Shown: positions 1,670 through 20,515 of the stretch, in pieces
Numbering within the stretch: the first letter of the stretch is position 1
Layout: each line of letters begins with the position of its first letter
DNA from: a virus
IMG/VR virus record: IMGVR_UViG_3300002143_000027
Span: 1-20,515 of that record
Length of the DNA: 20,515 bases
Reading direction: 5' to 3' (one strand)
Notes under the pieces: generated by a model
Seen by the model: only the letters and a program-made list of their open reading frames with translations
What the model was told of the DNA's origin: nothing
Database searches by the model: none
Position numbers and translations under genes: made by a program

Positions 1670-2770
1670 ATGCAAAGTTTTAAAGATTATTTAATAGAAG
1701 CCACTACATTAAAGGCAGAAGACTACGAAGCTGCTATAGTAATTGGGTGGCATGAAGTTTGTGGTATGAAGTTGGACCCTAACATAGCAGGTATCTCAGA
1801 ACTACAGTATGAGATATTAAAGATCAACCCTAAAGTCATCGAGACTGGTCGTCGTGTGGCCACTGCATTACTCAATGGTAATCATGCAAAGAGGGGCTCT
1901 AAGGCAGAAGTATATGGTCGTATATCAAACCCTATCTCTGCATACTGGAAGTCGTTTGGCGCTAGTAATACAACCCCTAAGACAGACGTTATGATTGGTA
2001 AACAACGTTTCTCGGTCAAGGTTGGTCAGGCGCAGTTGATGTCTGGTGGTAAATCAGAGTCTACTGCAACATTCAACGTCGCAATTAAACAAATCAAAGG
2101 CCTGGAAAAAAACCCACAAACCAAAAAGGTGGCGGCGATACTTGAGAACTTCGTTACTGCATCACTAGCCCCTGGGCAACTAAGGGCGATTGTCAAGTCA
2201 GGTAAGAATGAAGTCGTGAACGCTGGTGAGTCCGCACATAAAGAATGTATGAAGGAACTTGGTAAACTATTTGAACAATCTAAAGAATTTAAAATTGCAT
2301 TTGCACGTGAGGCGATGAGTGGGTTTGGTAAGTTTGGCGAGAAATCCGACTCTGCTGCTGAGTTTATGTTAGTAACTTCACATGATGGATCTGATGTACA
2401 AGTTCACTCTGTATACGATGATGCATACTGCGAATCAATTGCAAACAAGATGAAACTCCAGGCACGTTTCAAAACAACTTCACGCAAAATCAAGGGGGAG
2501 AAGACTGGAGAATATAACTTCTGGTCTGTTGTATCACTTATCGTTGACGCCTCAGATAAAGTTAAGAAAGAGGGATATACTCCTGAAGAAGTTGATTCGA
2601 TCAACGAATTCTTTGACTTAGGTAAAATTGCTACTTCTATTAAGAGTGCGGTTGCATCAGCATTCAATAAAATGAAATCTATCCTAAGTAGTGGTATTGA
2701 TTCGGTACTACAGTTCTTAGGTGTTGAGGTTGAAATTCAATCTAAAGATACGATTGACTTCACGAAATGA
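1670..2770 (+). CDS. Putative late or internal head protein with a possible nuclease-like core, 366 aa
   Basis: I chose ATG 1670 over ATG 1658 because GGAG at 1660-1663 is 6 bases upstream of it. The product starts MQSFKDYLIEA, strikingly like the T4 capsid-targeting leader MKTYQEFIAEA as I remember it, with a possible prohead-protease cut after Glu10. Residues 75-140 hold E80, D106 and S115-V-K117 with Q120 close behind, which loosely resembles a PD-(D/E)XK nuclease core but lacks the acidic residue before the lysine. The last 40 residues form an amphipathic helix with Ile and Leu. Codon use looks slightly more GC-rich than the genes after it. First gene behind the late promoter. Exact function unknown. 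Confidence 0.8.
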   Translation: MQSFKDYLIEATTLKAEDYEAAIVIGWHEVCGMKLDPNIAGISELQYEILKINPKVIETGRRVATALLNGNHAKRGSKAEVYGRISNPISAYWKSFGASNTTPKTDVMIGKQRFSVKVGQAQLMSGGKSESTATFNVAIKQIKGLEKNPQTKKVAAILENFVTASLAPGQLRAIVKSGKNEVVNAGESAHKECMKELGKLFEQSKEFKIAFAREAMSGFGKFGEKSDSAAEFMLVTSHDGSDVQVHSVYDDAYCESIANKMKLQARFKTTSRKIKGEKTGEYNFWSVVSLIVDASDKVKKEGYTPEEVDSINEFFDLGKIATSIKSAVASAFNKMKSILSSGIDSVLQFLGVEVEIQSKDTIDFTK

Positions 2771-2805
2771 ATATCTTTTCTAAAATCACACAATGGATTA
2801 ACTAA
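2767..2805 (+). CDS. Possible 12-residue coupling peptide
   Basis: ATG 2767 overlaps the stop of the upstream gene (ATGA) and its own stop overlaps the next start (TAATG at 2803-2807), encoding MNIFSKITQWIN. Overlaps on both sides allow ribosomes to pass from one large gene to the next across a 34-base gap that otherwise has only a weak ribosome binding site. It may be a translational coupling device rather than a functional peptide. Low certainty. Confidence 0.3.
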   Translation: MNIFSKITQWIN

Positions 2806-4043
2806 TGATCTCATTTAACAAATTTGTCACAGAAGAGAAAAATGTCCATATGGCCCATCTAGAGGATCTTGTCCTTGATGGTGGTGTTGAAGGTGTTCGT
2901 CAAGCGATTAATGCATTACAATCGTTACGTGATATGCTTGCTGGTAATTCTAAGTCTAAAACTAATGTAACAGTTAAGTGGGATGGTGCCCCAGCAGTAT
3001 TTGCTGGTACTGATCCAACTGATGGTAAATTCTTTGTTGCTAAAAAGGGTATCTTTAATAAGAGTCCTAAAGTATACAAGAGTCATAAAGATATTGAAGC
3101 AGATACCTCTGGAGATCTAACTAACAAATTAAAAGTTGCGTTTGATGAATTGTCAAAGGTTAACATTAAAGGTGTTATTCAAGGTGATATCATGTTTACT
3201 AAACCAGATTTAAAATCTGAAACAGTTGACGGTGTTAAGTATTGGGTTTTCCATCCTAACACAATAGCATATGCCATTGAAGCAAATAGTGATGAGGGTA
3301 AAAAAGTTCGTGCCGCAAAGATTGGTATAGTATTTCATACAGTATATACTGGCAACTCATTTGAGAATATGTCTGCTTCTTATGGGTTTGATATTAGTAC
3401 ACTTAAACACGGTAATAGTTTATGGGCAGTTAGTGCAAATCTACAAGATATGTCTGGTACTGCAACTATGACTAATTCTGAAACTGGTTTAGTCACTGCA
3501 CAGTTATCAAGGGTTGGCCAACTATTTAAGTCTGTTCCTGCATCTTTCTTTGATGAAATATCAAACGATAAAGGTTTTAACATATCTGTTAATACATTTA
3601 ACAATACATTCTTTCGGAATAAAGCATCACAACCAGCCCCTGCAAAGAAAGTTAATGATTTAATTAATTTCATTAAAGCAAAATATCAAAAAGAGATGGA
3701 TAAACGGTCAACTGATGCCGGTAAAAAGAAACAAAAAGAAGAATTAGATCAAATATTATCAATATTAGGTGGAACTGGTAAAAATAATATGGCAAATGTC
3801 TTCGAAATGCAACAATTACTGTCTGATGCGAAGCTAATTATTATAAATAAGTTAGACACATTGAATATGACTAAGACCTTTGTCAAAACTAGTAATGGAT
3901 ATAAAGTTACTAAGGCAGAAGGTTTTGTTGCTATCGATACTATCGCTGGAGGGGCAGTCAAACTTGTAGATCGTTTGGAGTTTAGTACAAATAACTTTGA
4001 TCCAGGCGTTATAAAAGGTTGGCAATCTTCCAATCGAAGATAA
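2805..4043 (+). CDS. Ligase-like nucleotidyltransferase domain protein, 412 aa
   Basis: The protein carries signatures of the covalent nucleotidyltransferase (DNA/RNA ligase, capping enzyme) superfamily: motif I K58-W-D-G61 within VTVKWDGAPAVFAG; a motif III-like strand VIQGDIMFT at 124-132; EGFV at 372-375 fitting motif IV; and VKLVDR at 385-390, with K386 fitting motif V. A spacer of about 240 residues between motifs III and IV is longer than in T4 ligases. I recall close homologues in cyanomyoviruses, usually labelled hypothetical. The N-terminus MISFNKFVTEE resembles those of neighbouring proteins in this block. If active it would form a lysyl-AMP at K58 and join or modify nucleic acid ends. 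Family placement is inferred from motifs; substrate unknown. Confidence 0.75.
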   Translation: MISFNKFVTEEKNVHMAHLEDLVLDGGVEGVRQAINALQSLRDMLAGNSKSKTNVTVKWDGAPAVFAGTDPTDGKFFVAKKGIFNKSPKVYKSHKDIEADTSGDLTNKLKVAFDELSKVNIKGVIQGDIMFTKPDLKSETVDGVKYWVFHPNTIAYAIEANSDEGKKVRAAKIGIVFHTVYTGNSFENMSASYGFDISTLKHGNSLWAVSANLQDMSGTATMTNSETGLVTAQLSRVGQLFKSVPASFFDEISNDKGFNISVNTFNNTFFRNKASQPAPAKKVNDLINFIKAKYQKEMDKRSTDAGKKKQKEELDQILSILGGTGKNNMANVFEMQQLLSDAKLIIINKLDTLNMTKTFVKTSNGYKVTKAEGFVAIDTIAGGAVKLVDRLEFSTNNFDPGVIKGWQSSNRR

Positions 4044-4069: not shown

Positions 4070-4858
4070 ATGTTATCGTTTAAAGAACTAATAGCTGTAG
4101 ATTATACAGGCACTGGCGATGTTCAACTCGCTAAAAATGCAAAACGTCGGAAAGACGTTGAAGACGTCTTAGAAGACTCTTCCGAGGTTGAAGAAGGTAA
4201 AAATGATTATGATATCTATCATAAATCATATTCTTCTGCTGTACAGCATGCAATAGAACAAGTTAAAAAACGAGGATACGAAATCGACATGGACGACTAT
4301 CATAATAAAGTCGCCGTAGGACCTCGTAAACCATCGGTCGGAAAAACAAACTCCTTCTCAATCGATCTTACCAAATCAGGGAAACCTGTTAAGAATAAAC
4401 TTCACATGCAAGTCTATGGCATGGAAGGCGGTAAGTACGAACTTAATATGTACACCGAAGGTCTTGAAGAAGACTTTGAATTTAGCGAAGAACTACTATC
4501 TGAAGAAGATGTAAATTTATTCGTCGTTGATGAAGCTATACTAACTCCAGCCGATCGTGCTCGTAAAAAACAAATCCTAAGACGTAGTAAATCTCGCATT
4601 GCAATTGGTAGACTAATTGCATCACGTCGTATGGCATCCAAATCAGTTGTTCAGAGACGTGCTAAAAGGCGTGCTCGTGCAATGGTATTCAAGAAGATCT
4701 TGAAAGGTCGTGCAAAATCATCCCTTTCATACGCAACTCGTGGTAGTGTAGAGAAATTAGTTAACAAACGTAAAAACATGACTGATAGATTGACTAAACG
4801 GTTAATCCCTAAAGTTCGTAAAGATGCCGTTATGCGGTTATCAGGTTTAAACAAATAA
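4070..4858 (+). CDS. Modular basic protein of the late block, 262 aa
   Basis: ATG 4070 (MLSFKELIAVDYTG) has AGGA at 4061-4064 and follows the upstream stop by 26 bases; a longer frame from 4019 would overlap the previous gene and is not preferred. Three parts are visible: an acidic linker; a central domain at about 47-130 (YHKSYSSAVQHAIEQ ... KYELNMY) that I associate with marine phage proteins; and a very basic helical C-terminal part from about 160 with many Arg/Lys and the ending RLIPKVRKDAVMRLSGLNK. The basic tail could bind DNA. The N-terminal leader is of the same M-x-x-FK type as its neighbours. Probable virion or head-internal protein; function unknown. Confidence 0.75.
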   Translation: MLSFKELIAVDYTGTGDVQLAKNAKRRKDVEDVLEDSSEVEEGKNDYDIYHKSYSSAVQHAIEQVKKRGYEIDMDDYHNKVAVGPRKPSVGKTNSFSIDLTKSGKPVKNKLHMQVYGMEGGKYELNMYTEGLEEDFEFSEELLSEEDVNLFVVDEAILTPADRARKKQILRRSKSRIAIGRLIASRRMASKSVVQRRAKRRARAMVFKKILKGRAKSSLSYATRGSVEKLVNKRKNMTDRLTKRLIPKVRKDAVMRLSGLNK

Positions 4859-4865
4859 TAACTAT

Positions 4866-5921
4866 ATGAAAAAATTTAGTGAGTATATAATTGAGGTTCT
4901 TAATCCTAAAGAAATTGTGTTTTCATTTGGTAGATTCAATCCACCAACTAATGGGCATGAAAAATTACTAGATAAAGTTGCATCGGTAACAAAAGGTTCT
5001 ACATATAGAATTTATCCATCTCATTCATCAGATCCAAAGAAAAACCCTTTGGGATGGGATGAAAAAATTAAATTTATGCGTAAGATGTTTCCTAAACATG
5101 CTCGCAGTATTATTGCAGATAAATCTATTAAGACCGCAATCGATGTAGTTAATAAATTATACGAAGAAGGTTACACTAAAGTTAGCATGGTAGTTGGTTC
5201 AGATAGAATTTCTGAATTCGATACACTATTAAATAAATACAATGGCGTAAAAGGTCGGCATGGATTTTATAACTTTAAAGAAGGTATCACAATTGTATCA
5301 GCCGGTGAACGTGATCCAGATTCTGATGATGTGGATGGTATGTCTGCTTCTAAATTACGTGGAGCCGCATCCAATAATGATTTAGAGACATTCTCTAAAG
5401 GAATGCCTAATGGATATAAAGAAGCACAAAAACTATTAAATGCTATTCGTAAAGGTATGGGTCTTAAAGAGTCTTATGACTTTAGGAGACATATCAAACT
5501 TGAAAGCGTTTCAGAAGAACGTGAATCTTATATTAGAGGTGAATTATTTAAAGAGGGTGATTTGGTTGAGTCAAAGGGTGATGATCAGTATGGGCAAGTT
5601 GTATTACTTGGTTCAAACTATGTCCTTATTGAATATACTAATGGTAATCGTAAACGTAAATGGTTATCAGATGTTAAATTAGTTTCAGAGGAAGTGTTAA
5701 AAGAAAACGAAGAAATTAAACTTGATGAATCTGATTTAGATATAATTGACAATGGGACTGTTCAAAATAGTAAACATGTTCTCGCTCTCCGAGCTTTTAA
5801 TATTTCAGAAATGAAAATAACTAAACCAATAACTACAGTCGCAAGCCTAAAACTAAATAGTAATAAATACTCCACATTAATGCAAAAAATGCATGAAGAA
5901 CGTAAAGGGAAAAAGAAATGA
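4866..5921 (+). CDS. Cytidylyltransferase/NMNAT-like nucleotidyltransferase with a KOW-like tail, 351 aa
   Basis: Residues 18-31 read VFSFGRFNPPTNGH, the nucleotide-binding motif of the HxGH cytidylyltransferase superfamily (T28-N-G-H31). VVGSDR at 109-114 and GMSASKLRGAA at 158-168 match its later strand and the SxSxxR-type motif. Such proteins transfer AMP or CMP to phosphorylated substrates such as NMN, phosphopantetheine or glycerol phosphate. Residues about 230-275 (EGDLVESKGDDQYGQVV ... RKRKWLSDVKLV) look like a small KOW/SH3-type beta barrel. The leader MKKFSEYIIEV contains I-I-E, close to the T4 capsid-targeting form. No clear Shine-Dalgarno; starts 7 bases after the upstream stop. 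Substrate cannot be told from sequence. Confidence 0.8.
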   Translation: MKKFSEYIIEVLNPKEIVFSFGRFNPPTNGHEKLLDKVASVTKGSTYRIYPSHSSDPKKNPLGWDEKIKFMRKMFPKHARSIIADKSIKTAIDVVNKLYEEGYTKVSMVVGSDRISEFDTLLNKYNGVKGRHGFYNFKEGITIVSAGERDPDSDDVDGMSASKLRGAASNNDLETFSKGMPNGYKEAQKLLNAIRKGMGLKESYDFRRHIKLESVSEERESYIRGELFKEGDLVESKGDDQYGQVVLLGSNYVLIEYTNGNRKRKWLSDVKLVSEEVLKENEEIKLDESDLDIIDNGTVQNSKHVLALRAFNISEMKITKPITTVASLKLNSNKYSTLMQKMHEERKGKKK

Positions 5922-6961
5922 AATTTAAAGATCTATTATCTAAGTTGAACGAGAAAAATGAACTCGGTACACCAGCAACTACAAAGGCATATGCTTCTGC
6001 CACTCCTAGTCAAGGTAAGGTAGGATTTAATCCCGATTCAGCGGTCGATGGTGTTGCATTGGCGAACGAGTTAGTCCAAGGTATAAAAGCACAAATTACC
6101 AAGGCAAGGCCGAATATTGATATTGACTCAGACGGTGACGTTGATGCAATGGATAAGAAGAATGATAATATTCCGGACGAAACTCCTGATAGTAAAAAAG
6201 ATACTCTTACACTGATCAAGACTCGTGCTGCAGAACGTGTCAGCACCAAGAACGAAGGTGTTTCTGAAGGACAGTATCAAAGTCAATATAAATCAAAAAA
6301 ATATGCTATTGCTTATGCTAAACATAGAGCAAAAACATTTCGTGATCCTGAGGATGGAATTGAAATATGGTCAATGCCAGATGGGGGGTTTGATGTGGTT
6401 CATAATATGAATTCAAATGGACGTAATCATCTCGTTACCAACGGCGGTAAGAAATTAGGTACAATTGGTCCTCGTCAGCAAGGTGTGTCCGAAAAAGCAG
6501 TAAGTGAAGAAGTCGAATCTATTACTGAGTTGACAGCTGAAGAAAAAAGACTTGTCAATACAATGTATGATAAGAAAGGCAATCTTACTGCAATCGGTAA
6601 AAAAGTTATGGACCACGGTAAGAAAAACGGGTTCCCTCATAACACTAGTGCTTCTCAAGGCCAAAGAATGGACGGCAAAAGCACAATGTATAGTGAAGAC
6701 ATTCAGATTGACGAATCTGAAGATAAATCACTTGCACGTCTAAGGCAATTAGTACGATTTGGATTAATGGATAAATCAAAATTACCATTAATCACTCGTG
6801 CTATGGGTAATTTAGAAAAGGGTAATGTAACAAATCCTACAGAACGATCTGTATTATTTGATCTATTGGATGAATTAATTGGTATTGTTACTGGAGACGA
6901 CACAATGTTTGCAAAGGTTCGTATGTCAGTTCAAAGAGAAGATAATGATGTCGGAAGATGA
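5918..6961 (+). CDS. Modular late protein with an EF-hand-type calcium loop, 347 aa
   Basis: ATG 5918 overlaps the previous stop (ATGA). Residues 68-79 (DIDSDGDVDAMD) form a canonical 12-residue EF-hand/dockerin loop with D68, D70, D72, G73 and D79. Further modules are a stretch at 120-186 rich in aromatic and His residues, a part at 205-250 (LTAEEKRLVNTMYDKKGN), and a C-terminal helical module from about 268 (RLRQLVRFGLMDKSKLPLI ... TGDDTMFAKVRMSVQRE) that I associate with marine phage virion proteins. Linkers are Ser/Glu/Gln-rich. The start MKFKDLLSKLNEK resembles the leaders of this block. Likely structural or head-internal; exact role unknown. Confidence 0.75.
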   Translation: MKFKDLLSKLNEKNELGTPATTKAYASATPSQGKVGFNPDSAVDGVALANELVQGIKAQITKARPNIDIDSDGDVDAMDKKNDNIPDETPDSKKDTLTLIKTRAAERVSTKNEGVSEGQYQSQYKSKKYAIAYAKHRAKTFRDPEDGIEIWSMPDGGFDVVHNMNSNGRNHLVTNGGKKLGTIGPRQQGVSEKAVSEEVESITELTAEEKRLVNTMYDKKGNLTAIGKKVMDHGKKNGFPHNTSASQGQRMDGKSTMYSEDIQIDESEDKSLARLRQLVRFGLMDKSKLPLITRAMGNLEKGNVTNPTERSVLFDLLDELIGIVTGDDTMFAKVRMSVQREDNDVGR

Positions 6962-8161: not shown

Positions 8162-8566
8162 ATGGATTTTAAATCAGAAGTAAAACTAATGTCAAAGACA
8201 TTGTCTGGAATGGTAAACGGTGAAAAATTTACACCTAAACTAATTCCTTGGATACCAAGTACTATCGAAGAGTCTAAAATACCTACTTTCATTCAAGCAG
8301 TTAAATCTGCTTATGAAATTAATAAATCTGAAATTGACTTTGATGGTTCTAAATTTGAAGTTTCATTTGTAAAAGAAGAAAATAAATTGACATACAAACC
8401 TGGAATCCGTGGTAGGTTTGATATAATGTTGAATGAACAACGTATAACATCTTTTACAGATTTAATGAAAGCTAAAGTCTTTATTGCTACAAGGCAACCA
8501 GTAGTAGATAATTCTACCAAGAAATCATTTACGAATTCTACTGTGAAGTCTATAAAAACTTTGTAA
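8162..8566 (+). CDS. Paralogue of the upstream W-[VI]-P domain protein, 134 aa
   Basis: AAGGAA at 8151-8156 supports ATG 8162, 9 bases after the previous stop. Residues 28-69 (IPWIPSTIEESKIPTF ... SKFEVSF) match the same residues of the upstream protein at W30, P32, F43 and at a Lys/Phe pair near the end, with many conservative changes. The zinc-like and linker parts of the neighbour are absent. The end is Ser/Thr/Lys-rich. The two probably arose by duplication and may form a complex. Function unknown. Confidence 0.7.
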   Translation: MDFKSEVKLMSKTLSGMVNGEKFTPKLIPWIPSTIEESKIPTFIQAVKSAYEINKSEIDFDGSKFEVSFVKEENKLTYKPGIRGRFDIMLNEQRITSFTDLMKAKVFIATRQPVVDNSTKKSFTNSTVKSIKTL

Positions 8567-8582
8567 AAGTTTGTATAAGTAG

Positions 8583-8610
8583 TTGTAGGTAATGTTCCTA
8601 TAACTATAAT
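8583..8610 (+). promoter_or_regulatory. Sigma70-like promoter (TTGTAG-N16-TATAAT)
   Basis: TTGTAG at 8583-8588 and a perfect TATAAT at 8605-8610 are 16 bases apart, in the only sizeable gap (8567-8625) of this part. The predicted start leaves a short leader with GAGG at 8616-8619 before ATG 8626. The -35 is weak compared with the TTGCA promoters. Confidence 0.5.
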
Positions 8611-8625
8611 AATGATGAGGATAGA

Positions 8626-8997
8626 ATGGCAGATTTATTTGATGTTTTGAATGAAGAAAATTTTGTTCTATACGCCGCAAAGTGTTATACGAATCCTCAA
8701 TGTACTGAGATATCAGAATTTTATACTGATCTAAACCGATTTAAGTATCTAAAGAGATTAATTAATAGGTACATGGAACATAATGATCTACAATATAGGT
8801 TAATTCTTAATCATATTATTGTAATATATAATGTGTTTGGTATTAAACCTGCTAATAGAATGATGCGATATAAACTAGAAAAAATTTATCTACCAGTAAT
8901 TAAACCATTTCTAGTTTATTTAAATTATATAACAGAGGATGAAATGGTAGATACTCCGTTAAACCTAACTGTAGTTAATGTATTAAGGAATATTTAA
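8626..8997 (+). CDS. Conserved phage protein of unknown function, 123 aa
   Basis: GAGG at 8616-8619 precedes ATG 8626. The product is largely helical, with segments NFVLYAAKCYTNPQC, LNRFKYLKRLINRYME and LILNHIIVIYNVFGIKPANRMM. I recall this pattern from a protein family widespread in T4-like phages of aquatic bacteria, where it also stands just before a homologue of the next gene. Cys20 and Cys26 are the only cysteines. No catalytic motif, no signal peptide. Start and frame are secure; function is unknown. Confidence 0.8.
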   Translation: MADLFDVLNEENFVLYAAKCYTNPQCTEISEFYTDLNRFKYLKRLINRYMEHNDLQYRLILNHIIVIYNVFGIKPANRMMRYKLEKIYLPVIKPFLVYLNYITEDEMVDTPLNLTVVNVLRNI

Positions 8998-9603
8998 ATG
9001 GGGATTATTCAAAGAGGTGCTGACCTTTTTTACACATTCAGGTTTATTAAACTATTGGTAACACAATGGAAGAATACTGATGCATATAAATTAGGTATAG
9101 TAGATGATGAAGGTAAACAATTAAAAAAAGTTAATGACTTTACTACTGATGAAGAAAAATCAGCATATACATTATTCCATAGGTTAGTGTATAACATGAA
9201 GCGATTAATAAATAAACTACCATTAATAGGTAAAACTCGCCTTGCAACACTGGCTTCTGCTTTATGGTTGATAAAAGAAGAGACAGGAATGAGCGAAACC
9301 AGAATTACAAAATTAATGGAAAAATACGTTAATGATAATAACCTTAATTTAGATACAACTATATTCGAAGGTAACAATTGGTTAATAGAATCAAATGGCG
9401 ATTTACGTAAAGGTACATATACTCTATTGGAAAACATTGCATCGCCAAAGACTGGTGAAATTATTGCCAGGCCGGGTACTGATATAAGGGTTATAGATTT
9501 TACTTCACCAATTGGATCACTGTTTGGTTCAAATATTTACGAAGTTCTACATATTCCAACTAAACAATATATATTTATTTCTGTTGGAGATATTGTTAGA
9601 TGA
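8998..9603 (+). CDS. Conserved phage protein of unknown function, 201 aa
   Basis: ATG 8998 immediately follows the upstream TAA, with AAGGAA at 8985-8990. The N-terminal part (FRFIKLLVTQWKNTDAYKLGIVDDEGK) and a helical middle (LFHRLVYNMKRLINKL) match a protein I know from marine T4-like phages, annotated hypothetical or structural. Residues about 105-201 are a second part with likely beta strands (GTYTLLENI, RVIDFTSPIG, YIFISVGDIV). The stop overlaps the next ATG (ATGA). A virion or assembly role is likely but unproven. Confidence 0.8.
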   Translation: MGIIQRGADLFYTFRFIKLLVTQWKNTDAYKLGIVDDEGKQLKKVNDFTTDEEKSAYTLFHRLVYNMKRLINKLPLIGKTRLATLASALWLIKEETGMSETRITKLMEKYVNDNNLNLDTTIFEGNNWLIESNGDLRKGTYTLLENIASPKTGEIIARPGTDIRVIDFTSPIGSLFGSNIYEVLHIPTKQYIFISVGDIVR

Positions 9604-9791
9604 TTACGTTCAAAGAATTCCTTAATCAGGGTGTACCCAAAGAATTACGGCAAGATGAAGATGCAGCCGTTAACTCAGTTGCAGCCGGCGGGGTTAATAT
9701 GAATGTTACAGGTGGAGTGAGAAAAGACAAACGTTCTAAATGGTCAATGGAACATATGCATCGTCGTGCATCTGGTGCCTTTACAAAATAG
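9600..9791 (+). CDS. Small conserved phage protein, 63 aa
   Basis: ATG 9600 overlaps the previous stop as ATGA. The start MITFKEFLNQG again shows the M-x-x-FK-[DE]-F-L leader seen in the late block, but without the L-x-E cut-site pattern. A Gly/Val/Asn-rich centre (VAAGGVNMNVTGGV) is followed by a basic tail (KWSMEHMHRRASGAFTK). The end of the gene overlaps the -35 box of the next promoter. Function unknown; possibly a small virion protein. Confidence 0.7.
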   Translation: MITFKEFLNQGVPKELRQDEDAAVNSVAAGGVNMNVTGGVRKDKRSKWSMEHMHRRASGAFTK

Positions 9792-9808
9792 CGTAAATAT
9801 GGTATAAT
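9780..9808 (+). promoter_or_regulatory. Sigma70-like promoter for the spanin genes (TTTACA-N17-TATAAT)
   Basis: TTTACA at 9780-9785 and TATAAT at 9803-9808 are 17 bases apart, with TGG before the -10 (extended -10). The -35 lies inside the 3' end of the preceding gene. The leader of about 45 bases ends with GGGA at 9850-9853 before ATG 9861. This is the closest match to the bacterial consensus in the window. Confidence 0.75.
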
Positions 9809-9860
9809 AACATAGTGCTCCAGCAGGGTAGTAGCTATTATTAGTTAATGGGAAAATATT

Positions 9861-10319
9861 ATGTTTGGTATAACTCAATTGATAAGAATTATCGTAGTTT
9901 TTGCTATTGTAGCAATTATCGCAGCAGGACTATGGTATGTCACTGGCCTAAGAGCAGACTTGGCGGTCAGTCAACAAAACAGTAAGACTTTAGAAGACGC
10001 TATAACAAAGCAACAACAAGTCATTGCTCAAATCCAAGAAGAACAAAAACAAATCAGTAAGATAAATACTGAACTTGCAGATAGAATCAGTAAGCAGAAT
10101 CTCGATGTTAAAGTACTTAATGATAAATTTAATGTTAGTAAGAATGGTACTGTACGAGATTTTGGTAAACTTGCAGTTGAAAAACCAGCAGTCATTCAAA
10201 AAGTTATTAATAATGCAACGGTATTAGCTTATAGATGTATGGAAATTGCATCAGGGTCTAAATTAAATGAAGGTGAAAAAAATGAAGAATGTCCTAATCT
10301 CATTAACACTATTAAGTAG
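9861..10319 (+). CDS. Inner-membrane spanin subunit (Rz-like), 152 aa
   Basis: One N-terminal membrane segment (about residues 8-28, IRIIVVFAIVAIIAAGLWYV) is followed by a long Gln/Lys-rich coiled coil (about 32-95), as in Rz-type i-spanins. With its partner it fuses inner and outer membranes in the last step of lysis of Gram-negative hosts. The next gene begins inside this one in another frame and encodes a lipoprotein, the classical overlapping Rz/Rz1 order. Cys residues near the C-terminus (RCMEI and NEECPN) may form disulfides, as in some spanins. No endolysin or canonical holin is adjacent. Confidence 0.8.
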   Translation: MFGITQLIRIIVVFAIVAIIAAGLWYVTGLRADLAVSQQNSKTLEDAITKQQQVIAQIQEEQKQISKINTELADRISKQNLDVKVLNDKFNVSKNGTVRDFGKLAVEKPAVIQKVINNATVLAYRCMEIASGSKLNEGEKNEECPNLINTIK

Positions 10320-10671
10320 CATTTCTGGTTGTGCTAGTTTCTCATCTTTCTTTAGCGACCCAGTTAAACCTATTCAGGTTAAAACAGTTGCCGTTGAAAA
10401 GACTAAACTTAACATACCAAATCCAACTCCACTTAAATTAAAACCTACTAAATGGGTGGTAATTACTGTTGACAATGCTCAAGAAGTATTTGCTAAACTT
10501 AAAAAAGATGGTGTAGATGTAGTACTTTTTGGAATAACTGATGATGGTTATAAAGAATTAAGTATGAATTTTTCAGAAATTAGAAATTATATAAGTACTC
10601 AACACAATATAATAGCAAAATATAAAGAGTATTATGAACCGTTAGGTGCAATGCCTGAGACTAAAAATTAA
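10282..10671 (+). CDS. Outer-membrane lipoprotein spanin subunit (Rz1-like), 129 aa
   Basis: ATG 10282 is chosen because AAGGTG at 10270-10275 precedes it and it gives a standard signal peptide MKNVLISLTLLSSISGC; ATG 10267 is also in frame. The lipobox I-S-G-C puts the lipidated Cys at residue 17. A Pro-containing linker (IPNPTPLKLKPTKW) is followed by a folded part (VVITVDNAQEVFAKLKK and on to NIIAKYKEYYE) that I have seen in lysis-associated proteins of marine T4-like phages. The gene starts 38 bases inside the i-spanin gene. It is larger than lambda Rz1 but of the same type. Confidence 0.8.
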   Translation: MKNVLISLTLLSSISGCASFSSFFSDPVKPIQVKTVAVEKTKLNIPNPTPLKLKPTKWVVITVDNAQEVFAKLKKDGVDVVLFGITDDGYKELSMNFSEIRNYISTQHNIIAKYKEYYEPLGAMPETKN

Positions 10672-15103: not shown

Positions 15104-15952
15104 ATGATTATAATAGATTACAGTCAAATTGCATTGAGCAACATTATTGCACAAAAAATGGCACCAGATGATGAGATGATACGTCATATGATTCTTAATT
15201 CTATTCGTATGTACAATAAAAAGTTCAAGAAAGAATATGGACAAGTTATACTCGCATGTGATGGTAGTAATACATGGCGCAGATCATATTTTCCCAATTA
15301 TAAAGCATCACGTCGTAAAGGTCGCTCAGAATCTACTATAGACTGGAACGCTATTTTTGAAATACTTAATAAAGTCCGTGATGAAATTAGGGATAATACT
15401 CAATATAAAGTATTACACTTTGATGGTTGTGAAGCAGACGACATCATTGGTACACTGGCATTAAATACACAAGAGTTTGGTAACAATGAACCAGTAATGA
15501 TTGTGTCATCTGATCACGATTTTATTCAACTTCAAAAATTTGGCATTAAACAATATTCGCCAATACAAAAGAAATATGTTACAGAAAAAGATCCAAATGC
15601 TTACCTATTTGAGCATATACTTAGGGGTGATACTGGTGATGGTATACCTAACGTATTATCTGGCGATAACGTATTCGTCGATGGTGTAAGACAAACTCCA
15701 CTATCTAAAACTAAGATTAACCTATGGGCACCAAATGCATTAAAACTTAATGAGGTTATGCCTGAAGATGTTTATCGTAATTATCAACGTAATAAGACTT
15801 TGATCGATTTAACGATGGTCCCAGAAGTACATAAATCTAAAATTATAAATACTTTTGAAAATTATGTTACCCCACATAAAACCAAGTTTCTCAACTACTT
15901 GATCAAAAATCGTTGTAAATTGCTTATTGAATGTATAGAGGAATTTTATTAA
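15104..15952 (+). CDS. rnh: T4 RNase H-type 5'-3' exonuclease (FEN-1 family), 282 aa
   Basis: Removes RNA primers and 5' flaps during lagging-strand synthesis. Acidic metal-binding residues appear in family order: D5 (IIIDYSQI), D53 (ACDGSNTWR), E110/D112/D113 (EADDIIG), D137/D139 (SSDHDFIQL) and D176/D179 (GDTGDGIPN). The basic stretch YKASRRKGR at 67-75 fits the helical arch that binds DNA. The length is close to that of T4 RNase H. It has its own promoter (15044), no obvious Shine-Dalgarno, and is followed after one base by the next gene. Confidence 0.93.
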   Translation: MIIIDYSQIALSNIIAQKMAPDDEMIRHMILNSIRMYNKKFKKEYGQVILACDGSNTWRRSYFPNYKASRRKGRSESTIDWNAIFEILNKVRDEIRDNTQYKVLHFDGCEADDIIGTLALNTQEFGNNEPVMIVSSDHDFIQLQKFGIKQYSPIQKKYVTEKDPNAYLFEHILRGDTGDGIPNVLSGDNVFVDGVRQTPLSKTKINLWAPNALKLNEVMPEDVYRNYQRNKTLIDLTMVPEVHKSKIINTFENYVTPHKTKFLNYLIKNRCKLLIECIEEFY

Positions 15953-18449: not shown

Positions 18450-19116
18450 ACATATTGGTGCTGATCTTGGGTATAAAGATTTAACTACTTCTACTGTAGA
18501 CGGTAAACGAGTATATAATTTACCTAGTGGTAAACAGTATCCTTCTATAACTAGTGTTCTAAGTATATTAAGTGCGGATGGTATACGAGCATGGAGAGAA
18601 CGAGTTGGAGCAGAAGAAGCTAATCGTATATCTGGAAAGGCATCTAGGCGTGGTACTGCTGTTCACCTTATTGCTGAGAAATATTTAAACAATGACCCTG
18701 ATTATAAAACAGGACTTATGCCAGATGTGGTAGATACATTTAAAAGTATCCAACCTATATTAGATGAAAGAATTGGAAAAATTTATGGACAAGAGTTACC
18801 TTTATATTCTGATTACTTGGGTGTCGCTGGACGTGTCGATTGCGTGGCTGAGTTTGATGGGATACCTTCTATCATCGATTTTAAAACAAGTAAACGTGTA
18901 AAAACATATGATCACATTCATAGTTATTTTATGCAAGAGTCTGCATATGCAGTTATGTGGGAGGAGAGGACTAATATACCAATTGTTAACTTAGTTACAA
19001 TTATTGCAGTTGATGACAATCCACCTTTAGTGTTTAAAGAACACAGAGACAATTGGACTGCGCCATTGATTGAAACTATAACAAGATTTAAACGTGAAAA
19101 ATTTTTTGGAGCATAA
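18412..19116 (+). CDS. PD-(D/E)XK exonuclease, RecB/Cas4-like, 234 aa
   Basis: I chose ATG 18412 (MIPLTKTQKKIFEHIG); a longer frame from a TTG at 18367 would overlap more of the upstream gene. Motifs in order: GTAVHLIAEKY with H85, E129 in GQELPLYS, D143 in GRVDCVAEF, and D156-F-K158-T-S-K161 as the PD-(D/E)XK core with its trailing lysine. This is the RecB/AddB-type nuclease layout used in DNA recombination and degradation; T4-like marine phages often carry such an exonuclease near phoH. No iron-sulfur cysteines of the Cas4/AddB type are seen. Confidence 0.88.
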   Translation: MIPLTKTQKKIFEHIGADLGYKDLTTSTVDGKRVYNLPSGKQYPSITSVLSILSADGIRAWRERVGAEEANRISGKASRRGTAVHLIAEKYLNNDPDYKTGLMPDVVDTFKSIQPILDERIGKIYGQELPLYSDYLGVAGRVDCVAEFDGIPSIIDFKTSKRVKTYDHIHSYFMQESAYAVMWEERTNIPIVNLVTIIAVDDNPPLVFKEHRDNWTAPLIETITRFKREKFFGA

Positions 19117-19117
19117 T

Positions 19118-19765
19118 ATGGATTTATTAGAATTATTAAAAGGTGCGAATAAACAACCTAAAGATTTCTTTACAAATAGGCCAATTGGGCAAGTACATGA
19201 ATTTTATTTATCTGGAGAGATCGAAAGTTCCGATCAATATATTGAATGGTTTGATTGCATTAGGCACGCAAGTGAACAAGACTTTGTTAAACTTTATATT
19301 AATAGCCCTGGTGGTGATCTATTCACTGCAATACAATTTATGCGAATACTTGCTGAAACTAATGCGACAGTATGTTGTTCAGTTGAAGGTGCGTGTATGT
19401 CTGCATCGACTATGATTTTCTTATGTGGAGATCAATTTGAAGTTACCCCACATTCTATGTTCATGTTCCATAATTACTCTGGGGGCGCATTTGGTAAGGG
19501 AGGGGAGATGATAGACCAATTACAGCATGAACGTAAATGGTCGGAAAACTTATTACGTGAGATATACGAGAACTTTTTAACTGAAACTGAGATAACATCT
19601 ATCCTTGATAATCGTGATATATGGATGGATGGTACTGAAGTTATTAAGAGATTAGGTAGTAAAATGCTTGCCCTACAAGCCAAAGCGGATGAACAGAATC
19701 TTAAAAACATTGAAATAAAAGATGTACCAACTATCAAAAAGAAGAAAGAAACTTCTAAAATATAA
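19118..19765 (+). CDS. ClpP-like serine protease, 215 aa
   Basis: GGAG at 19108-19111 supports ATG 19118. KLYINSPGGDLFTAIQF at 58-74 is the ClpP/SppA strand-turn; S95 in GACMSAS fits the nucleophile, H118 in MFMFHNYSGG the catalytic His, and D167 or D171 in LDNRDIWMDGTE the Asp. The Lys-rich end (KKKKETSKI) extends past the usual core. Such phage proteases may cut virion or host proteins; no partner unfoldase is seen here. It is the last gene before the Fe-S gene pair. Confidence 0.9.
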   Translation: MDLLELLKGANKQPKDFFTNRPIGQVHEFYLSGEIESSDQYIEWFDCIRHASEQDFVKLYINSPGGDLFTAIQFMRILAETNATVCCSVEGACMSASTMIFLCGDQFEVTPHSMFMFHNYSGGAFGKGGEMIDQLQHERKWSENLLREIYENFLTETEITSILDNRDIWMDGTEVIKRLGSKMLALQAKADEQNLKNIEIKDVPTIKKKKETSKI

Positions 19766-19773
19766 AGAAAATG

Positions 19774-19781
19774 TATAAATA
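19774..19781 (+). promoter_or_regulatory. Candidate T4-type late promoter before the Fe-S genes
   Basis: TATAAATA lies in the 27-base gap 19766-19792. If used, transcription would start only about 6 bases before ATG 19793, giving a nearly leaderless mRNA, and no Shine-Dalgarno is visible. The same octamer occurs by chance inside coding regions here, so this is uncertain. Confidence 0.35.
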
Positions 19782-19792
19782 ATATTAATCTT

Positions 19793-20122
19793 ATGGAACA
19801 AATAACAATAACAGATGATGCAATACTTAAAATTGCAGATTTAATAGCAGAAGAAAATAATTCTTTATTAAAATTACGCACGTTTGTTCAGGGTGGTGGG
19901 TGCTCTGGTATGCAATATGGATTTACATTAGATGAAGTGCAAAATGAAGACGACTTTGTTATTAACAAAAATAATGTAACGGTGTTGATAGACTCTATGA
20001 GTATGCAATATTTAACTGGCGCAGTTATTGATTATAAAGAAGATAATATGGGCTCTAGTTTTTCAATAAAAAACCCAAATGCACAGACAAGTTGTGGATG
20101 CGGTAGCAGTTTCTCGGTATAA
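19793..20122 (+). CDS. A-type iron-sulfur carrier, ErpA/IscA-like, 109 aa
   Basis: The three cluster-binding cysteines of A-type carriers are present: C37 in [11 protein letters not shown], and C101 and C103 in [11 protein letters not shown]. The C-terminal CGCGSSFS-[IV] ending and the KNPNA stretch are closest to ErpA, as I recall it from E. coli. These small proteins accept [4Fe-4S] or [2Fe-2S] clusters from the IscU scaffold and pass them to target enzymes. Length (109) is normal. The gene is 6 bases upstream of iscU and probably cotranscribed. It is AT-rich like its neighbours, so adaptation to the phage seems old. Confidence 0.92.
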
Positions 20123-20128
20123 ACTATT

Positions 20129-20515
20129 ATGTCTTACAGCCAAGCAGTCATTGACCACTATGAAAACCCTCGTAACGTAGGATCGTTTGAAAAAGATGAT
20201 CCTACTGTTGGTACTGGTATGGTGGGCGCCCCAGCGTGCGGTGATGTGATGAAACTTCAGATTAAAGTAGAGAAAGGTATAATCGTAGATGCTAAATTTA
20301 AAACCTACGGCTGTGGAAGTGCGATTGCATCAAGTTCGCTCCTTACTGAATGGGTCAAAGGAAGGACACTTGACGAAGCGGCAAAGATTCAAAATAGCGA
20401 AATTGCTGCTGAACTCGCCCTACCCCCTGTTAAAATTCATTGTTCAATACTTGCAGAAGATGCGATTAAAGCCGCAGTAGAGGACTACAAAAATAAACAT
20501 GTTAACAGTAACTGA
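20129..20515 (+). CDS. iscU: Iron-sulfur cluster scaffold protein IscU, 128 aa, complete
   Basis: IscU assembles Fe-S clusters with the cysteine desulfurase IscS. All key residues are intact: C37 and D39 (GAPACGDVMK), C62 (TYGCGSAIASSS), H104 and C105 (VKIHCSILAEDA), and the chaperone-binding LPPVK motif at 98-102 recognised by HscA. The protein follows the E. coli sequence, as I remember it, along nearly its full length, including VIDHYENPRNVGSF and TEWVKG. No IscS, HscA/B or ferredoxin is in the window, so it would have to work with host partners. The stop codon is the last base of the window. No clear Shine-Dalgarno; probably coupled to the erpA-like gene. Confidence 0.96.
   Translation: MSYSQAVIDHYENPRNVGSFEKDDPTVGTGMVGAPACGDVMKLQIKVEKGIIVDAKFKTYGCGSAIASSSLLTEWVKGRTLDEAAKIQNSEIAAELALPPVKIHCSILAEDAIKAAVEDYKNKHVNSN

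Follow-up and report, generated by a model that had tools for sequence, protein, structure and literature searches.

The 20,515-nucleotide stretch of DNA analysed here (the window) spans positions 1 to 20,515 of IMG/VR virus record IMGVR_UViG_3300002143_000027, and it raises the question of what is encoded by its open reading frame at 2805-4043, whose product belongs to the family DUF6267. A sequence-only reading had taken this protein for a virion-linked, ligase-like nucleotidyltransferase and suggested that it could repair host-cut tRNA or genome ends. Its predicted fold is very likely that of the covalent nucleotidyltransferases, and the explanation that we favour, with restrained confidence, is a ligase-type nucleotidyltransferase that would seal nucleic-acid ends and would be virion-delivered in the clade to which the window belongs.

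The open reading frame (plus strand, 412 residues) is a real gene. Pfam PF19782 (DUF6267) aligns to residues 13-399 (E 5.5e-98, model positions 1-373 of 376), and the score of 329 bits against a curated cut-off of 27 places the protein in the family; the PHROG match is phrog_455 (E 1.5e-91). No other Pfam family matched at E up to 1, and PDB sequence searches with the single protein and with a 73-sequence profile matched nothing relevant. Relatives were found on 394 viral contigs by a search with the window protein alone, and phage records with DUF6267 number about 470, almost every one from a T4-like marine phage. As had been anticipated from the sequence, the Pfam and PHROG entries and the phage record annotations call these proteins hypothetical, and a literature search with the name DUF6267 gave no match. 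The homologues collected fall into four clades, namely the long one to which the window protein belongs, those of HTVC008M and Syn1, and one of short cyanophage forms. A cellular origin was considered and set aside; the matches in bacterial and archaeal genome collections (L393-L430) are nearly all on contigs from metagenome-assembled or single-cell genomes, of which only part were checked individually, and are mostly read as viral carry-over, that is, phage contigs binned with unrelated organisms.

The motifs KWDG (58-61), QGD (126-128), EGFV (372-375) and VKLVDR (385-390) lie where the sequence-only reading had placed them. In an alignment of 255 distinct homologues with identity down to about 28%, K58, D60, G61, D128, E372, G373 and K386 are identical in every sequence, so that K58, E372 and K386, whose conservation had been singled out as decisive, do not vary. 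Only 38 of the 412 columns are near-invariant (at least 99% identical), and they include all seven named positions (hypergeometric p = 3e-8), a fair test because the positions had been picked from one sequence. Also invariant are H15, H18, E20, K81, Q126, P151-N152, H178-T179, Y181, N267, K343 and R390, while W59 may be W or Y and G127 may be G, A or C. Motif I thus has the K-x-D-G form of the superfamily with an invariant lysine, and motifs III, IV and V follow in order, their residues lying within or beside strands 124-132, 373-378 and 383-388. For the motif Ia-like segment the comparison is Rnl2, where R55 comes twenty residues after K35.

Two AlphaFold models were compared with known structures. 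The window model, built with 73 sequences from the window clade and related ones, reached a mean predicted local distance difference test (pLDDT) of 89.1 and a predicted template-modelling score (pTM) of 0.86, with strands and motifs ordered as in ligase-type nucleotidyltransferases; the second, of a 303-residue cyanophage form in which the helical insert is much reduced, reached 91.9 and 0.88, respectively. Foldseek searches of PDB with the window model gave no significant E-value, with a DNA ligase at the top and ligases making up most of the other plausible matches. VIA-align placed the Naegleria gruberi RNA ligase first (Z 8.4), followed by trypanosome RNA-editing ligase 1 (TbREL1, 8.3), T4 Rnl2 (7.8), T4 Rnl1 (7.5) and a tRNA ligase (7.5), mixed with helical bundles. 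Matches to DnaK, BAR-domain and similar proteins were set aside as artefacts of the helical insert because they are gone with the short-form model. That model again matched the N. gruberi RNA ligase best (Z 9.0, 174 residues, 3.8 A), and RNA ligases (Z about 5.6-9.0) ran ahead of DNA ligases, T4 gp30 included (at most about 5.7). All 50 PDB entries among the matches listed were ligases, which places the core fold in the superfamily at Z up to 9.0 and Foldseek E above 0.08. Within BFVD, the first annotated ligase-type matches beyond DUF6267's own family were likewise RNA ligases. Structure prediction and fold search, the check put forward with the sequence-only reading, therefore bore out a resemblance to covalent nucleotidyltransferases, T4 Rnl1 and Rnl2 among them, and the two models, the fold comparison and the motif invariance agree on this point.

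The insertion of about 240 residues described from the sequence needs to be trimmed: the span from motif III to motif IV is indeed 244 residues, but the true helical insert is only about 140. The span does not equal the insert because known RNA ligases already have about 70-105 residues there (Rnl2 E99-E204; N. gruberi E227-E312) and the beta-strands as far as residue 210 are part of the core. The large insert, together with the altered motifs III and V, could speak for an inactive protein of nucleotidyltransferase fold with a structural or scaffold role; this is highly improbable, since every predicted catalytic residue is invariant in the 255 sequences, which would be unexpected for a dead enzyme. 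Nucleotidylation of the presumed active-site lysine is likely.

Family placement within the superfamily is less direct. Alignment with hhalign to the T4 Rnl2 family (PF09414) gave a probability of 0.1-0.2%, the same as an unrelated control, and the OB domain of DNA ligases of the gp30/LigA type was not found in the window protein, which has room for it neither after motif V (26 residues) nor before K58 (57 mostly helical residues). Kinship with the ligases consequently rests on fold and motif invariance, since sequence profiles show no signal, and DUF6267 is to be seen as a remote new family rather than filed under the RNA or DNA ligases. The predicted protein would have an RNA-ligase-type core in which a helical insertion replaces the OB or C-terminal domain, and we lean towards nucleic-acid ligation as its activity.

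The N-terminus bears on the second half of the question, whether the protein is virion-linked. The window protein begins MISFNKFVTE and continues EKNVHMAHLED, and residues 1-11 are disordered in the model (pLDDT <50). T4 internal proteins reach the prohead core by a capsid-targeting sequence and gp21 cuts after Glu, the Alt cut site being ITE-6 (PMC5694885, PMC9958956). MISFNKFVTE resembles such a short N-terminal peptide and ends in a putative hydrophobic-x-Glu cut site. One pattern, M-x(1-5)-[FYL]-x2-[FYLIHM]-[ILVMF]-x-E, catches both this start and that of T4 IPII and IPIII (MKTYQEFIAEA). It occurs in 58 of 81 close homologues of the window protein and in those of Melnitz, C48C1 and DLP6, in none of 161 homologues of the Syn1-type and short cyanophage forms, in none of 113 control proteins from two neighbouring families, and at 13 of 3586 internal methionines taken as background. 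Members of the HTVC008M clade mostly have a shortened tag (MYNDLLVEDKN), of which the pattern counts only 5 in 81. Cyanophage homologues have the conserved core as their very start (MAKNTHLEHLED), and the window protein, once cut after E10, would begin in nearly the same way. Each of the eight complete genomes searched for it, that of T4 among them, encodes a protease of the gp21 family; the window is a fragment of 20.5 kb. Packaging into heads in the window clade is, on this pattern, moderately probable.

Tag-like starts occur on several consecutive window genes (1670, 2805, 4070, 4866, 5918 and 9600, weaker at 4070, 5918 and 9600), which suggests a putative block of head-delivered proteins. 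In phage C48C1 (L338-L345, 57-68 kb), five of the eight genome-wide N-terminal tag matches cluster around the DUF6267 locus. Another C48C1 match (MKDYSHFMVEA) starts the 499-residue product, perhaps the major capsid protein, of an open reading frame at 19.4 kb; the prohead protease gene lies about 4 kb before it, at 14.7 kb.

Published virion proteomes fit the tag pattern in two phages, with the tagged cytidylyltransferase in and the untagged DUF6267 protein out. The tagged proteins are S-SZBM1_140 (MRFRQFIIEA), found in virions (PMC9146016, Table 1), and S-CREM2 gp154 (MKNFSSFLTEA; PMC10665884, Table 3). The cytidylyltransferase-type neighbour was also detected in virions of S-SM1 and, as an NMN adenylyltransferase (NMNAT; NMN, nicotinamide mononucleotide), of S-SCSM1 (PMC3037559, PMC9602691), and the authors of these studies note that carry-over is not excludable (PMC9146016, PMC10665884, PMC3037559, PMC9602691). 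The term virion-linked has indirect support in the T4-type targeting-like N-terminus of the window clade, but untagged cyanophage homologues are missing from two virion lists. A plain virion structural protein was set aside because the catalytic-type residues are invariant and the cyanophage homologues are missing from those lists.

Several observations weigh against a head-delivered ligase. All Foldseek E-values against PDB exceed 0.08 and Z-scores of 8-9 are modest; no profile match links DUF6267 to any ligase family; and motif III has Asp instead of Glu while motif V has no second Lys, both non-canonical. The tag pattern is a regular expression defined after viewing the sequences, with the control families and the agreement of the proteomes as guards against over-reading it. 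S-SZBM1_141 and S-CREM2 gp87, the DUF6267 proteins of these cyanophages, have no tag and are not in the virion lists (PMC9146016, PMC10665884), and a literature search for a virion proteome of any tagged DUF6267 homologue found none.

Distribution suggests a different emphasis. Among Synechococcus-named records, 371 have DUF6267 and 375 have UvsX, and among Cyanophage-named ones each occurs in 61, which makes DUF6267 essentially universal in T4-like cyanophages; it is also present in SAR11 phages and methylotroph phages. In 16 distinct large DUF6267-positive genomes, the ATP-dependent DNA ligase family PF01068 is missing from 15 and PF01653 from all, whereas 20 T-even phages, T4 among them, show the reverse, with PF01068 present and DUF6267 missing. 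Cyanomyoviruses have been described as being without g30, distant homologues being possibly unrecognised or absent (Clokie et al. 2010, PMC2984593), and T4-like cyanophages as having no recognised DNA ligase and mostly no RNase H (PMC2984593). A T4 RNase H homologue lies in the window at 15104-15952, though cyanophages are reported mostly to be without one. DUF6267 could accordingly be the DNA ligase that has been missing from marine T4-like phages, standing in for gp30 at Okazaki fragments and recombination nicks, with the tag of some clades as a secondary trait, and the position of its gene just after uvsX and the gp41 helicase gene would suit this. This is a serious rival, though we hold it to be doubtful: the anti-correlation with PF01068 is mostly one split between two clades and not many independent events, replacement is not strict because DLP6 carries both genes, the fold is nearer to RNA than to DNA ligases and has no OB domain of the kind in known DNA ligases, and a host ligase could suffice.

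The near-universality in gp30-less cyanophages points to a replication or repair role at least as much as to tRNA repair. The latter, an RNA ligase like T4 Rnl1 acting against host anticodon nucleases as the sequence-only reading proposed, is very unlikely. Rnl1 is among the fold matches (Z 7.2-7.5) and a possible head delivery would suit early repair, but counter-defence genes are not usually so nearly universal, the annotated neighbourhoods inspected showed no polynucleotide kinase as a partner, and the N. gruberi RNA ligase outscores Rnl1 in both models.

The gene neighbourhood is summarised in Table 1. The description of the gene as lying in a structural block holds only halfway: proteins detected in virions are encoded downstream, but in relatives the gene stands just after uvsX and the gp41 helicase gene, directly or a few genes on (HTVC008M, Syn1, DLP6, Melnitz, S-CAM8 and S-SZBM1). 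At all 173 loci with room for it, the 3 kb downstream of DUF6267 include a cytidylyltransferase/NMNAT-like gene; in S-CREM2, outside this set, the two genes are far apart. The best named relatives of the protein at 4866-5921 are NMN adenylyltransferases, at scores far below the cut-off. BFVD entries named cytidyltransferase (591-915 residues, such as S-PM2 A0A0M6VVW4) contain the DUF6267 fold too, which implies fusion and a shared pathway, and phrog_455 covers both kinds of protein; no fused open reading frame was found in the loci examined, fusions appearing only in BFVD and PHROG. Two labels attached to these proteins are probable annotation errors: phrog_4808, a ribonucleotide reductase alpha subunit by name, matches the C-terminal part of the 4866-5921 protein, and the BFVD entry H8ZNG8, called NrdB, contains the DUF6267 fold.

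Table 1. Coordinates of the DUF6267 gene, its parts and its neighbours in the window.
Feature	Position	Strand	Basis
Upstream neighbour, start MQSFKDYLIEA, conserved TPKTD...SxK (putative PD-(D/E)XK-like)	1670..2770	+	sequence pattern
DUF6267 / phrog_455 protein, predicted ligase-type nucleotidyltransferase fold	2805..4043	+	412 residues; Pfam, PHROG, AlphaFold
Capsid-targeting-like propeptide MISFNKFVTE, residues 1-10, putative gp21-type cut after E10	2805..2834	+	motif pattern, disorder
Motif I, K58-W-D-G61, presumed nucleotide-accepting Lys	2976..2987	+	K58, D60, G61 255/255
Motif Ia-like F76-F84, invariant K81 replacing the usual Arg	3030..3056	+	K81 255/255
Motif III, Q126-G-D128, Asp against Glu of RNA ligases	3180..3188	+	Q126, D128 255/255; strand 124-132
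Motif IIIa-like strand G174-Y181	3324..3347	+	H178, T179, Y181 255/255; strand 173-182
Inserted helical block separating motif IIIa from motif IV, about residues 212-355	3438..3869	+	helices 224-353; about 140 residues
Motif IV, E372-G-F-V375	3918..3929	+	E372, G373 255/255; strand 373-378
Motif V, K386-L-V-D-R390 (K-x-V-x-R, not K-x-K)	3960..3974	+	K386, V388, R390 255/255
Downstream neighbour, likely start MLSFKELIAVD, open reading frame called from 4019	4070..4858	+	tag in 12/48 of its family's relatives
Cytidylyltransferase/NMNAT-like, tag MKKFSEYIIEV	4866..5921	+	PF01467 E 8.8e-5; phrog_395 E 5.9e-77

The strict pairing, the double-fold BFVD proteins, the span of phrog_455 and the weak matches to NMN adenylyltransferase models would also suit an enzyme that does not join nucleic acids but transfers nucleotides to a protein, a small molecule or the 5' end of an RNA, and works in nicotinamide adenine dinucleotide (NAD+) metabolism with the NMNAT-like neighbour; the non-canonical motifs III and V are in keeping with this. 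Such an enzyme is unlikely, as most superfamily members that have no OB domain are RNA ligases, the fold comparison puts nick-sealing RNA ligases nearest, and the two genes are separated in S-CREM2. A bolder combination, decidedly unlikely as a whole, is that DUF6267 is an unrecognised OB-less RNA-ligase-type ligase that replaces gp30, is head-loaded in some clades with an NMN-adenylyltransferase-like partner, and may use NAD+ with the NMN recycled by that partner; this conjecture would explain the pairing of the two genes.

The slot directly upstream of DUF6267 is occupied by several apparently unrelated proteins, each with a PD-(D/E)XK-like D...[SE]xK pattern: 1670-2770 in the window, and 8947-10005, 8478-9977, 4658-5995, 8700-10001 and 9079-9996 in L082, L083, L329, L247 and L084, respectively. 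The patterns read TPKTD...SVK, PSDI...SLKK, VDF...FSVK, IDF...VSVK and PKSDF...SHK, and the proteins have no Pfam match. By this pattern the slot may be the place of an exchangeable nuclease that goes with the ligase-like gene. Elsewhere in the window, overlapping genes at 9861-10671 resemble those of spanins, the inner one of Rz type with weak PHROG matches and the outer one a lipoprotein, and 19094-20515 encodes a ClpP-like protease followed by IscA-type and NifU/IscU-type Fe-S assembly proteins, the last reaching the contig end.

For the favoured explanation, a head-delivered sealing enzyme, we propose the following course. K58 would take AMP from ATP or NAD+, and the adenylate would be passed to a 5'-phosphate end and the break sealed. 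In the window clade the first ten residues would bring the protein into the prohead core, a gp21-type protease would remove them after E10, and the enzyme would enter the cell with the DNA, alongside its tagged neighbours, the NMNAT-like protein and the nuclease-like one. Cyanophages would make their untagged protein during infection.

New here are the tag on close homologues, the near-universality of DUF6267 in gp30-less cyanophages and its constant cytidylyltransferase/NMNAT-like partner (173/173). A protein present in nearly every sequenced T4-like cyanophage has had a DUF number as its only name, and a ligase-type fold would make a stated gap testable, namely that cyanomyoviruses have a T4 replisome and no recognised DNA ligase. 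The tag pattern suggests that, by the gain or loss of about ten residues, T4-like phages can turn an ordinarily expressed enzyme into a head-delivered one and back, and it may serve as a simple means to list the head-delivered proteins of marine phages.

Among known systems, the best fold match to both models is the N. gruberi nick-sealing RNA ligase (Rnl5 type; 5cot, 6vt0, 6vt1), which shares with DUF6267 the motif order and a 14-residue spacing between motifs IV and V (E312-K326); identity is 9-15%, and the helical insert is in DUF6267 only. That ligase differs from DUF6267 in its N-terminal OB domain, in the Glu of its motif III and in its K-x-K motif V. Both T4 RNA ligase 2 and the RNA-editing ligase 1 of trypanosomes (Z about 7-8) resemble DUF6267 in having no OB domain and in the order of motifs I, Ia, III, IIIa, IV and V, but Rnl2 gives no profile-profile signal and has a C-terminal domain where DUF6267 ends 26 residues past motif V. 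T4 RNA ligase 1 is likewise of phage origin, and its helices form a C-terminal domain whereas those of DUF6267 sit between motifs IIIa and IV. T4 DNA ligase gp30 shares the superfamily fold and might be functionally replaced where it is missing, but DUF6267 has no OB domain and goes undetected by PF01068, and DNA ligases score lower in the fold comparison. The T4 internal proteins IPII and IPIII and Alt are packaged and cleaved, while packaging and cleavage of DUF6267 are predicted here from sequence; they offer the closest parallel for the N-terminus, with a capsid-targeting sequence and, for DUF6267, a protease encoded by its relatives.
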